Part shown: positions 14,154 to 18,270 of the stretch, one piece after another
Position numbering within the stretch: position 1 is the stretch's first letter
How the letters are laid out: every line of letters starts with the position of its first letter
Assembly (NCBI GenBank): GCA_028284905.1
Contig: JANQQU010000063.1
Coordinates: 1-64,000, forward strand
Source of the DNA: Calditrichia bacterium
GTDB lineage: Bacteria > Calditrichota > Calditrichia > RBG-13-44-9 > J075
Direction of reading: 5' to 3'
DNA length: 64,000 bases
Translations under genes and position numbers: made by a program
The notes under the pieces: generated by a model
Told to the model about the DNA's origin: nothing
What the model saw: only the letters and a program-made list of their open reading frames with translations
Databases searched by the model: none

Positions 14154-14834
14154 TTATTGATAAGGTTTGAATTCCTCGAATAAACCCACCAGCCTCTCAC
14201 TAAAAGATTTCATGCCCGGCAGATTGGAAATCGCCAGTAGACGAACGATTAAATCCACACTGCGATCGACCAGTCGATCAGTTTTTTCCTGATCCGGTGT
14301 TGTATCAAACAGCCAGTAAATGATGATAAGGATTTTGAACAGCCAGAGAATCTCCGGCAGCTTATCCTTAATGCCACTGGGAATGCGGTCTGATGACCCA
14401 TTGACGCCTTCCCGAAGGAGAGATATATTCTCTTCACGAAGTTCGCGGGTTTCCTCGCTAAATGGCGATAAGGGGTGGCCGGGCGTAGAAGCCACCCGGA
14501 AAAGCGCTTTGGAAATCTGGTGATAGGGTCGGGCAACATCAAGATGGGTTTTGATCAATCCGGTAATGCGCGTTTTCAAAGCCTTGTTGTTGTTAAGTGT
14601 CGCCCGTGCCGGCTCGAGATGATCCTGATAGGATTTCTCATAAAAATGAAAAATGATATGTTCTTTGGTTTTGAAATGATAATAAGTGGCGCCCGGCGTC
14701 AATCCGGAAAGCTGCGCAATTTTGCGCATTGTCGCTTGCTCGTATCCGGTTTCCAGGAACAACTTCAGCGACGCATCGAGGATGCGTTGGCGGGTTTCCG
14801 CGGCTTTCTGATTTTTAGTGGCATTCATTGTCAT
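14154..14834 (-). CDS. TetR-family transcriptional regulator
   Basis: A 226-residue repressor. The N-terminal helix-turn-helix (about residues 10-55) reads RQRILDASLKLFLETGYEQAT followed by IAQLSGLTPGATYYHFKTKE, the family signature. The helical C-terminal ligand domain is divergent. It is the last gene of a four-gene leftward operon; its ATG is one base past the TAA of the DCC gene, so translation is coupled. Alternative starts exist at 14843 (TTG) and 14828 (ATG). Two perfect inverted ACGCGT-centred operators flank the operon promoter at 16970-17033, which makes autoregulation likely. The inducer is unknown. Confidence 0.9.
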   Translation of the reverse strand: MTMNATKNQKAAETRQRILDASLKLFLETGYEQATMRKIAQLSGLTPGATYYHFKTKEHIIFHFYEKSYQDHLEPARATLNNNKALKTRITGLIKTHLDVARPYHQISKALFRVASTPGHPLSPFSEETRELREENISLLREGVNGSSDRIPSGIKDKLPEILWLFKILIIIYWLFDTTPDQEKTDRLVDRSVDLIVRLLAISNLPGMKSFSERLVGLFEEFKPYQ

Positions 14835-14835
14835 A

Positions 14836-15246
14836 TTAATCAAGGAACCGTTGTTTTAGATCCGGGGTGGGCAGCATACAATGTTCTTGTTTGCCAAACC
14901 AGCGATAGCGATTACGGGCTACAAGATTGTAAAAAAAGTCCCGAATCGGTTTTGGAATGATGATAAATCCATACAACAGCGGCCAGAGGCCTTTCAGATG
15001 ACGAACCGCTTTCAGGGCACCGGAAGAACGGGTAAAGGCCCGATCGTTCTCGATCAGAACGAATGTATCAAAATCATCCGTAGGGAGCTGAAATTTTTTC
15101 AGGAGCGCCTGCCCGGTATTTGATTGCAAAGATGCAAACTGCAGATGGGCCTGGGGATCCCGTTCGATAATAAACTGAACAGAGTTGTTGCAAAGGTTGC
15201 AGACGCCGTCAAATAACATCAGTGGCTTCGCCGGAGACGAATTCAT
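14836..15246 (-). CDS. DCC-family thiol-disulfide oxidoreductase
   Basis: A 136-residue DUF393 protein, named after its Asp-Cys-Cys motif, seen here as LMLFDGVCNLCNNSVQF (CxxC at about residues 16-19). The fold is thioredoxin-like. The middle (FASLQSNTGQALL, AFTRSSGALKAVRHL) and the C-terminal helix with WFGKQEHC are also typical. Partners are often membrane proteins of the DoxX or HTTM kind, as here: it overlaps the 3' end of the SRPBCC-DoxX gene by 38 bases. Likely role: dithiol-disulfide exchange for a membrane electron-transfer or repair module; the substrate is unknown. Confidence 0.88.
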   Translation of the reverse strand: MNSSPAKPLMLFDGVCNLCNNSVQFIIERDPQAHLQFASLQSNTGQALLKKFQLPTDDFDTFVLIENDRAFTRSSGALKAVRHLKGLWPLLYGFIIIPKPIRDFFYNLVARNRYRWFGKQEHCMLPTPDLKQRFLD

Positions 15247-16159
15247 AATAAGCCTCTTTGGGTTTTCTCATACAATTTCCGGCCGTGGGCAGCAAATCGA
15301 TTATTAACCAATCGACAATGGATAAGCCTACCATGGCGATAGTTAAACTGGCCGGATTAAATGGCGCCAGGTATATTGCCGGGGAATGGAATATCGCGCC
15401 TGTCGCAAGGGCAAGCAAGGCCAGGCAATTAATAAAGTGTAGCAGCTTACTTCGAAATATCAGAAAAAACAGACCGAAAAGAATTTCCCCCACGCCAATA
15501 TATGGCAGTACTAAACGCTCATAACCGGGAAATAAACCGGTGCTTTGCAGTAATGCGAGTTCTCCGGTTTCCGGATAAAGAATTTTCGGAACCAGGCCCT
15601 GGTAAATCCAGACGAAAGCCAATAGTATCGCGATGAGCATGTGCACCAAATAGAGGCGCAGGGATGTTTTCGGATGAATATTTTTCTCCAGCCATAAGCG
15701 TAAACAGTCGAAACTCCAGGCAGTTGCCCAGCCAAGTAAAGGGCGGAATAAAATTGTATCGAGAAAGCGGCCGAGAATGCCAAAACGGGTTTGATAATCG
15801 AACCAGGTTTTAAAATGAAATCCGCTGCCGTTAAGTCCGTAAATCCATAAGCCGGTGCCGGATTTAATCGGTGAAAAAAGCTGGTTGGACCAAAAAGTGA
15901 GCGTATGAGAATTTTCCCCGGTTTCCTCAAATCGAGCTTCTTTCGCCTTCCCCCGTCCGATGACGCGTACCCCGGGAGCAATGTTTTTGCGATATTCCAG
16001 GAGCTGTCCATTCGTTTCGTCTTCCTGGGAAATTGGCGTGATTTCGGAAAAACGTAAGTCCCATTGTTGTTGTTTCTCGGGATTCTGGGTGTATTCCCAA
16101 AGGTCACTGAATTTTGCATTGATATACAGTTCCACGTAAACCGGATTTTGTTTAAACAT
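15209..16159 (-). CDS. SRPBCC domain fused to DoxX-like membrane domain
   Basis: A 316-residue fusion. The N-terminal half (to about residue 160) is a START/SRPBCC-type fold, a hydrophobic-ligand pocket: VYVELYINAKFSDLWEYTQNP opens it and a long amphipathic C-terminal helix (FLDTILFRPLLGW) closes it. The C-terminal half has four transmembrane helices with DoxX-like spacing (LVHMLIAILLAFVWIYQGLV, YIGVGEILFGLFFLIF, INCLALLALATGAIF, IAMVGLSIVDWLII). The ATG at 16159 is preferred over 16219 because of GGGAGG upstream. It overlaps the preceding gene by 8 bases and the next by 38, a tightly packed operon. A lipid- or quinone-linked redox task is a guess from the DoxX and DCC partners. Confidence 0.75.
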   Translation of the reverse strand: MFKQNPVYVELYINAKFSDLWEYTQNPEKQQQWDLRFSEITPISQEDETNGQLLEYRKNIAPGVRVIGRGKAKEARFEETGENSHTLTFWSNQLFSPIKSGTGLWIYGLNGSGFHFKTWFDYQTRFGILGRFLDTILFRPLLGWATAWSFDCLRLWLEKNIHPKTSLRLYLVHMLIAILLAFVWIYQGLVPKILYPETGELALLQSTGLFPGYERLVLPYIGVGEILFGLFFLIFRSKLLHFINCLALLALATGAIFHSPAIYLAPFNPASLTIAMVGLSIVDWLIIDLLPTAGNCMRKPKEAYYEFVSGEATDVI

Positions 16160-16958
16160 GGCCGCCTCCCTCTTGTTCTGCAGATTCAGCCAATAATATA
16201 CCTTCCGTCCGGGAAGCATCTCCGGATTTTGCCAGAGGGACTAATGAGCGATAGCTATGCCATATAAGCGATTCTTCCTCAACTAATAGAGTGGAATCCA
16301 ACACGGTATTTATCTGATGCTCGCGAAAGAAATCATACAAATGCGGAAAATGATGCTCCACTGAATGACAGAAGCATATTTCCCAATCAGGGTGGTCGAC
16401 AGTTTGCAGAAAAGCTTGCCGGCGCAGTGGATCATACAAGCAAAGGCCATTGTGCTCCAGGGTAAATTTTGCCGCTGCTTTGGCATCGGGAAAAACGCTC
16501 TCGCTGGGTTTGGAAAGCCTGACGCTCTTCATGTCCGTGCTCAAGTAACCACTACAGGGAGAGTGGCGTGCCTGGCAGGTAATAGTGTAAAATTCTCCGG
16601 GATCATCAATCATGAATACCGGCGGGGATTCGTTGCGCAGAATTTCCCTGGGTTCCAATCGATGCCACAGCCGGGAAGAGACAGATTCGAAAAGGGGATA
16701 CAAACTTGGATAGACCTTTGCCGGCGTATGTAAATCGACCTGGATACCGCAGACAATCCGCTGTATATGAATCGGGGGAATTCTCAATGGCCCAAGATGG
16801 GATACGAAAAAATCGCCAGCTTGTAAGCTGATGATTCCATTAGAGGATAGCGAAGGCCGGCGGACCGTCATGCAATCCGGCAGCAAGGCTTGCAGCGCCT
16901 CCGGCGTCGCACTGAAGTTGACAGTAATTAGCTTGTTGACAGCGGTTTTGATTTTCAT
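16152..16958 (-). CDS. DUF2071-like (acetoacetate-decarboxylase-fold) protein
   Basis: A 268-residue protein with no signal peptide or membrane segment. The opening (TVNFSATPEALQALLPDCMTV), the SLQAGDFF strand and the RHSPCSGYLSTDMKSVRLS region suggest the DUF2071/YqjF group related to the acetoacetate-decarboxylase fold. The match is by general pattern, so the family name is tentative. It is the first gene of the TetR operon; AAAGGGG lies just upstream of its ATG and the promoter-operator region directly before that. It overlaps the next gene by 8 bases. Confidence 0.55.
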   Translation of the reverse strand: MKIKTAVNKLITVNFSATPEALQALLPDCMTVRRPSLSSNGIISLQAGDFFVSHLGPLRIPPIHIQRIVCGIQVDLHTPAKVYPSLYPLFESVSSRLWHRLEPREILRNESPPVFMIDDPGEFYTITCQARHSPCSGYLSTDMKSVRLSKPSESVFPDAKAAAKFTLEHNGLCLYDPLRRQAFLQTVDHPDWEICFCHSVEHHFPHLYDFFREHQINTVLDSTLLVEEESLIWHSYRSLVPLAKSGDASRTEGILLAESAEQEGGGHV

Positions 16959-16969
16959 ATTACCCCTTT

Positions 16970-17033
16970 TTGAACGCGTTTAAAAAATACGAAAGCAAAT
17001 ATTCTTAGTCAAGTGAAAATTAAACGCGTTCAA
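16970..17033 (-). promoter_or_regulatory. Promoter flanked by two TetR-type operators
   Basis: TTGAACGCGTTTAA at 16970-16983 and its exact reverse complement at 17020-17033 share an ACGCGT core, centre to centre exactly 50 bases apart. Between them, read leftward, are TTGACT (17007-17012) and TATTTT (16984-16989) with 17 bases between, a good -35/-10 pair. A repressor bound at both sites would sit directly against the -10 element and just upstream of the -35. The operon's own TetR protein (14154-14834) is the obvious candidate. Confidence 0.75.
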
Positions 17034-17078: not shown

Positions 17079-17576
17079 TTATCTGGTGAGGTTTTTGAAA
17101 TACGCAGCCATCACCTCGGTATGTAGTGGAAAGGCGAGTGTTATTGGCTGGGAGAAAATGCGCCGTTCGCTGGTTTCCCTGGTCGCGGAAAAGGGAGGTA
17201 AGTCTGACTCGTGCAGGAGCGTTTCTGATAATCCAAAAATAATCAGCATATTGTCTTCACTGCTACGCACCCGGAATTCGCGGATATTTTTTGCAGATAC
17301 CTGAATGCCGGTTTCTTCGTAAAGCTCCCGGGCGCAAGCGGCTTGCCAGGATTCTCCAAAATCGATGAATCCCCCGGGAAACGCTAACTTCCCAGCTGCC
17401 GGACGAATCGCACGGCGGATGACCAAAAGGCCATTATCTACCGGCTGCAATAGCACTGCAACCGGCAGAGGATTTCTATAAGTAATACGATGACAGGAAG
17501 CGCATTTCCGGGGCCAGGGTGTTTCTGTCGAAAATGCATTTCCACAAAAGCCACAATGCGCGTATGCATTAGCCAT
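17079..17576 (-). CDS. Nudix hydrolase with N-terminal zinc ribbon
   Basis: A 165-residue Nudix enzyme. A zinc-ribbon (CGFCG and CASCH within the first 35 residues) precedes the Nudix box, which is intact as GFIDFGESWQAACARELYEE. Such proteins hydrolyse nucleoside diphosphates linked to another moiety; the zinc ribbon and overall size resemble the ADP-ribose / NADH-pyrophosphatase side of the superfamily, but the substrate is not fixed by sequence. The ATG at 17576 is preceded by AGGATAAA. It overlaps the stop of the TerB-like gene by 8 bases, so the pair is co-transcribed. Confidence 0.88.
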   Translation of the reverse strand: MANAYAHCGFCGNAFSTETPWPRKCASCHRITYRNPLPVAVLLQPVDNGLLVIRRAIRPAAGKLAFPGGFIDFGESWQAACARELYEETGIQVSAKNIREFRVRSSEDNMLIIFGLSETLLHESDLPPFSATRETSERRIFSQPITLAFPLHTEVMAAYFKNLTR

Positions 17577-18042
17577 TTTTTTTATCCTGACGCTGCTCCA
17601 ACACCGCCAGTTTAGCATCAATCAGTTCGCTATGTTTCAGGTTCAGCAGGCGGGAAAAACGATGCATCAGGTAATTCTCATGCTTATCCAACTTGCCATC
17701 GGCGTAAACAACTTTCCAAAGCAGCTCGACGACACGAATTTTTTCTTCCCGGGAATAGTTCTCGTTGATCATGTTGGTAAATTTCCAAAGATCGAGGCTG
17801 TTATCCAATTCTGCCTGCGCGGCCTCGGAAAGCGTCTCGGCGTGCTCCCGGGAAAGGTCAAACTCCGTCTGAAGAATTTCAATAATTTCCTGCTGCTCAT
17901 TTTCACTGAATTCGTCATCAATATTGGCCATTTCCAAGAAGAGCGCGCAAGCGGCAATACGGACATCATGACCGCTCGGTTGATTGTTCTCATCGCCGGT
18001 TTCCTGTTCGCTGCCAAATACCTTTTTCAAAATGTCGAGCAT
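17569..18042 (-). CDS. TerB-like helical protein
   Basis: A 157-residue all-helical acidic protein of the TerB-like (COG4103) group. Two copies of the acidic metal-site pattern are visible: ANIDDEFSENEQQEI and VYADGKLDKHENYLM, each followed by a long helix. TerB-like domains bind divalent metal and occur in envelope-stress and tellurite-resistance contexts; no other ter gene is present here. The ATG at 18042 is preferred for the GGAGA site. The gene is translationally coupled to the Nudix gene downstream. Confidence 0.8.
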   Translation of the reverse strand: MLDILKKVFGSEQETGDENNQPSGHDVRIAACALFLEMANIDDEFSENEQQEIIEILQTEFDLSREHAETLSEAAQAELDNSLDLWKFTNMINENYSREEKIRVVELLWKVVYADGKLDKHENYLMHRFSRLLNLKHSELIDAKLAVLEQRQDKKNG

Positions 18043-18270
18043 GAAGTCTCCGTTTATTGAGGAACTCGTTCCGTTATCATTAGATAGATTACCGCTGATA
18101 TAAAAAATAGTTGCCAGTCTTTCGGAAAACAACAGTTTTTAGGTTGGTATCGTAATGTTTTTTTTGTACTTTTAATTATAGACATTCACCGATATGTTTA
18201 AGAAAAAATTAGTGTTCCCGAGTGCCGTTGACGCGGGATGTTCAGATGAATCGATGACGTAACTGCCGAG

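Follow-up and report, generated by a model that had tools for sequence, protein, structure and literature searches.

Does a promoter that lies between two matching 14-base sites, and that opens an operon ending in a TetR-family gene, belong to a switch by which this regulator controls its own expression? The question is raised by a locus in a 64,000-nucleotide stretch of DNA from a Calditrichia bacterium (the window), for which a preliminary description made from the letters had proposed such a switch. Our answer, to which we give a probability of roughly 86%, is that the operon 16958-14154 would be negatively autoregulated by its own TetR protein at both sites, from which a ligand or stress signal would release the bound dimers. 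The case is built on the anatomy of the locus, the uniqueness of its sites, the conservation of the operators and of their bracketing arrangement beside one TetR clade, and the co-occurrence of site and TetR, all of which are direct observations.

Layout of the Promoter and the Operon

Read along the minus strand, the locus runs TTGAACGCGTTTAA, 7 bases, TTGACT, 17 bases, TATTTT and then, from the very next base, TTAAACGCGTTCAA, downstream of which follow a probable ribosome binding site and an ATG at 16958 (Table 1). The two 14-mers (16970-16983 on the plus strand and 17020-17033 on the minus strand) are exact reverse complements with starts exactly 50 bases apart, and both fall within the intergenic stretch of about 120 bases that leads from a NUDIX gene to the operon. 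The sequence thus bears out the preliminary description of an exact 14-mer and its reverse complement, 50 bases apart around a leftward TTGACT-17-TATTTT promoter, with one site abutting the -10 element and the other just upstream of the -35 (0 and 7 bases, respectively). Its wording of “perfect inverted” operators stands in so far as they are exact reverse complements; each site is itself an imperfect palindrome, in which one of the seven half-site positions differs, and because each is near-palindromic the inverted relation of the two rests on that single position. In both window operators the TTGAAC half lies outward and the TTAAAC half toward the promoter, and sites elsewhere are more symmetric.

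The operon is compact, with four leftward genes, and ends as described in a TetR gene of its own, which encodes a full-length regulator. Gene 1 gave a very weak acetoacetate-decarboxylase match in Pfam (E 0.2) and was taken by eye as the counterpart of a gene in the operon of the relative G003. The probable start of gene 2 is an internal ATG of an ORF that opens at 16219, and that of gene 4 was chosen at an ATG inside an ORF opening at 14843. The NUDIX gene was not taken as part of the switch; upstream of it on the same strand lies a TerB-family gene (17569-18132), the two ORFs overlapping by about 50 bases.

Table 1. Features of the candidate switch and its surroundings in the window.
Feature	Position	Strand	Basis or remark
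Distal candidate operator TTGAACGCGTTTAA	17020..17033	-	7 bases upstream of -35; same promoter-relative place in orthologous loci
Predicted -35 hexamer TTGACT	17007..17012	-	Hexamer search; TTGAC position in orthologue pairs
Predicted -10 hexamer TATTTT, 17-base spacer	16984..16989	-	Promoter hexamer search
Proximal candidate operator TTAAACGCGTTCAA (as read on the minus strand)	16970..16983	-	Abuts -10; expected to overlie the transcription start
Probable ribosome binding site AAAGGGG	16963..16969	-	Sequence
Gene 1, 268 aa	16152..16958	-	No Pfam family at cut-off
Gene 2, DoxX_3 domain protein	15209..16159	-	Pfam
Gene 3, DCC1-like thiol-disulfide oxidoreductase (PF04134)	14836..15246	-	Pfam
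Gene 4, TetR regulator (PF00440 + PF17931)	14154..14834	-	Proposed binder of both operators
NUDIX gene	17079..17621	-	Ends about 45 bases before the distal operator

Rarity of the Sites and Strength of the Promoter

Across the 8.55 Mb genome there are two copies of the exact 14-mer, both at this promoter, and its reversed-pattern control gave 0 matches in the same 8.55 Mb, so that the concern of a motif scattered at random across the genome falls away. When three mismatches are allowed the window holds 7 sites against 8.2 expected, not above chance, and for this reason only exact or near-exact sites are meaningful. The promoter hexamers match at 9/12, with 7 promoter-like sites found against 5.6 expected, which by themselves make them no better than chance (shuffle p 0.093). 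While the hexamers alone are weak, their position in orthologues supports the predicted promoter: TTGAC starts 20–22 bases from the start of the distal operator in 19 of 30 non-Streptomyces pairs, and in the non-Streptomyces pairs the proximal operator follows the -10 region.

The Regulator and Its Candidate Operators

The protein carries a TetR helix-turn-helix (PF00440, E 9.5e-13, 48.2 bits against a cut-off of 24) and a PF17931 match (E 4.3e-21), and its architecture is full-length, the solved TetR structure 3c07 being matched over residues 6–221 (E 1.6e-45). We take 3c07 to be the SCO4850 protein. The locus groups with the 3c07/SCO4850-type clade in having both an orthologous TetR and a TTGAACNNGTTCAA-like pair around the operon promoter. 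As in other members of the family, the protein would form a homodimer, and the candidate operators are near-palindromic. Autoregulated TetR-family repressors with two operators are well known, among them TetR and QacR; the window resembles them in its helix-turn-helix TetR protein and in the palindromic candidate operators at its own promoter, but differs in operator sequence, in operon content (there is no efflux pump) and probably in ligand.

Could the sites instead be bound by some other regulator, such as a second TetR or a protein akin to Rex or KstR, with the TetR of the operon as a passenger? We consider this improbable. Rex is not a TetR protein, and the operon TetR scores 28.5 bits against the KstR NCBIfam equivalog cut-off of 280, on which ground a KstR identity was rejected. 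The 14-mer does fit the published KstR consensus TNNAACNNGTTNNA (PMC1995591), yet KstR has a large regulon whereas the window sites belong to a single operon. The core TGAACGCGTTCA can likewise occur inside a Rex site according to PMC5355995, but Rex needs TTGTGAA where the locus reads TTTTGAA; the outer TTG...CAA is absent, and the window flanks read TTTTTGAACGCGTTTAAAAAA instead of the Rex regulon site TTGTGAANNNNTTCACAA of that paper, so that this candidate was also rejected. More general evidence on a foreign regulator comes from the relatives.

Operator Pairs in Near and Distant Relatives

Within the phylum, the TetR was found at E <= 1e-20 in 2/40 genomes, that of the window and G003, whose orthologue is 51% identical to the window protein. 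G003 places a TTGACA-15-TATACT promoter between TTGAACGTGTTCAA and TTGAACGCGTTCAA, 48 bases apart. The G003 operon encodes the TetR, a methyltransferase, a protein without Pfam match, DUF4166 and a DCC1-like protein, the last labeled by likeness to the window protein. Among the seven genomes of the family, TTRAACRYGTTYAA is present in the same two, with 2 sites each and all of them at this TetR operon, and its reversed control gave one match each in G001 and G003.

Farther away, 38 loci were picked by TetR protein similarity alone. Eight come from the order of a Leptospiraceae genome, in which 8/30 genomes have the TetR; the class of G060, in which 51/299 genomes have a match, contributed the loci of its 30 best matches. 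L128 and L129 come from the same genomes as L027 and L028, and L138 duplicates L026; all three are included in the 38. A pair at 30–65 bases was found in 28 loci, a tandem form at 14–15 bases in four, a single site in four and none in two, which leaves 10/38 loci without the 30–65 pair and 6/38 without any pair. The single site of L132 sits within the TetR coding region, because of which this locus is better counted as having none, and in L161, another single-site locus, a further site whose core is changed lies at 54 bases. At TetR identities below 70%, 14/21 loci have the pair and 2/21 the tandem form. In the controls, shuffled copies of the 30 class-of-G060 loci gave a pair rate of 0.0 and reversed copies 0/30, and no pair turned up at any of 77 Streptomyces loci reached through other TetRs.

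The operators share a cross-lineage consensus TTGAACRYGTTCAA, derived from 42 pairs (30 non-Streptomyces and 12 Streptomyces, leaving out L138 and the tandem, single and no-site loci), in which AAC and GTT stand by construction because the site finder requires them. The window sites depart from it at a single half-site position, where the rest of the 42 compared pairs have G. L157 (618-700, operon strand) and L165 (617-700, operon strand) have three operators at a single promoter: a tandem of two follows the -10, and the third lies upstream. L026 is titled Acidimicrobiia, and its flanking genes look acidobacterial by eye, so the bin label may be wrong.

The class of G060 allowed presence and absence to be compared over 299 genomes, of which 51 hold the TetR clade and 35 an exact TGAACNNGTTCA pair: the pair is found in 35/51 genomes with the clade and in 0/248 without it, and its reversed pattern in 0/299. 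The Fisher value of 1.3e-33 ignores shared ancestry and overstates independence because the genomes are related. Sixteen of the 51 TetR-clade genomes have no exact pair, some of them having tandem or mismatched sites. For 34 of the 35 genomes, the distance between pair and TetR gene is at most about 1.1 kb; in the remaining one, G405, the two are on different contigs. That pair and clade appear and vanish together here, as in the 2/7 genomes of the family, that the pairs keep so close to the TetR gene, and that pairs are missing from the 77 loci with other TetRs, all argue against a different regulator at these sites. Pairs away from the main TetR gene (G375:C1:2138776, G473:C3:411928, G518:C9:234082 and G405:C47:57345) may mark further targets.

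The Streptomyces Operon

The exact pair is also found in 92/150 genomes of the genus of G063 (Streptomyces), the remaining 58 being without it, and the reversed-control pattern in 0/150. Gene content was read at 12 loci from among the 92 positive genomes. At nine of them the pair precedes genes for a small membrane protein, a DCC1-type protein and the TetR; at three (L118, L124, and L126) it precedes, away from the TetR operon, a YndJ-like gene and then DUF1990, as assigned by Pfam in L126. The YndJ/DUF1990 genes are a likely second target of the regulon in Streptomyces.

From gene content and an sdhB-like neighbor in L114, we take the membrane-DCC1-TetR operon to be SCO4848-SCO4849-SCO4850. 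Like the window, it has a DCC1-type gene, two TTGAACNNGTTCAA operators around the promoter and a TetR that belongs to the same clade, at 35% identity over the full length. Unlike the window, its first gene encodes the small membrane protein, its spacing is 45, and its best -35 match is located at the distal operator, as in 12/12 Streptomyces loci (these matches are weak by shuffle). A SCO4848-like protein had no match in the window's genome, in a search without positive control, and was not seen by eye among the ORFs of 14 kb in G003. Such a first gene is not universal, because 14/34 pairs in the class of G060, where the TetR match begins <=41 bases from the pair, leave no room for it before the TetR. 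SCO4848 is given as the phiBT1 attachment gene and SCO4849 is reportedly co-transcribed with it (PMC7460540, PMC3836970, PMC5937489); integration at the phiBT1 site is reported to affect differentiation (PMC7460540), and another study lists sco4849 among sigma-E targets (PMC6767563). SCO4850 itself appeared only in two transcriptome tables in the searched literature, with most subscription papers outside its coverage.

Spacing and Helical Phase

The preliminary description read the 50-base spacing as five helical turns, with both dimers on the same face of the DNA. This did not hold: 50 bp corresponds to 4.76 turns at 10.5 bp per turn, and the spacing varies among lineages. From start to start it is 50 in the window, 48 in its nearest relative G003, 47–52 in the Leptospira relatives, 50–56 in the class of G060 (22/23 pairs at 53–56) and 35–46 in Streptomyces among the matches listed (45–46 in the nine membrane-DCC1-TetR loci), with 14–15 in the tandem variant. 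The spacing is lineage-specific (45, 47–52, 48 and 50, 54–55) and spans different helical phases. Because it differs among lineages and a tandem form exists, helical phase is not conserved, and a phase-based cooperative or looping model is unsupported since the spacing varies. We therefore give little credence, as little as to a foreign regulator, to operators joined by a tetramer or loop in need of a fixed phase: such a joint would suit two sites about 50 bp apart around a single promoter and the narrow spacing within a lineage, seen in both the class of G060 and the nine Streptomyces loci, but the differences between lineages (45, 47–52, 54–55) are not whole turns, the tandem form does not fit, and promoter geometry accounts for the spacing equally well. 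The conserved feature is the bracketing of the core promoter by two putative operators, and not their phase.

The least probable of the readings that we weighed is a TetR acting as activator or dual regulator, which would recruit polymerase from the distal site and repress from the proximal one. In its favor, the window and its relatives have the distal site a short way ahead of the -35. Against it, in the window, in G003 and in most of the class-of-G060 pairs printed, the proximal operator adjoins the -10 and would be expected to overlie the start, and the position of the best -35 match on the distal operator in Streptomyces fits occlusion.

A Proposed Switch and Its Significance

Under steric autorepression, which we prefer, one TetR dimer would sit on the distal operator, a few bases ahead of the -35, and another on the proximal operator, abutting the -10 and over the transcription start, and with both bound RNA polymerase would be unable to load. 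A small ligand or stress signal would release the dimers, so that the DCC1-like, DoxX-like and remaining genes would be expressed, along with further repressor. The proposal that the sites are operators of the operon's own TetR in an autoregulatory switch is strongly supported by the footprints and by the presence/absence comparison. On sequence evidence, the locus is a predicted autoregulated TetR operon of unusually wide conservation, and the predicted regulon of this TetR and operator pair is well supported. No description of the operator or regulon of this TetR was found in the searched literature, most subscription journals being outside its coverage, and searches there for DUF393 + TetR operons, DUF/YndJ combinations, two-operator systems and the Pfam and PDB names returned nothing relevant.

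As for function, DCC1, DoxX_3 and the sigma-E listing of sco4849 in PMC6767563 lead us to guess at a role in thiol/redox or envelope stress. A wider picture, which is tentative and which we hold possible at rather less than even odds, would make the locus one copy of an ancient and widely shared stress module in which the TetR and a DCC1-type thiol oxidoreductase are joined by membrane or lipid-handling partners (DoxX_3, DUF4166, YndJ/DUF1990, an SDR epimerase or a SCO4848-type protein) and respond, across several phyla, to a single conserved signal of hydrophobic or redox nature. The Streptomyces form of the module would be the operon into which phiBT1 and its vectors insert, and integration there may therefore sever the repressor from its own promoter.

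The result equips an uncharacterized regulon with a set of target genes, to which YndJ/DUF1990 may be added, with the sequence of its operator and with a regulator whose relative 3c07 has a solved structure. The regulon is found in several distant lineages, and the motif makes it searchable; it would be tractable in Streptomyces, where the gene presumed to come first in the operon serves common vectors as their phiBT1 integration site (PMC7460540).
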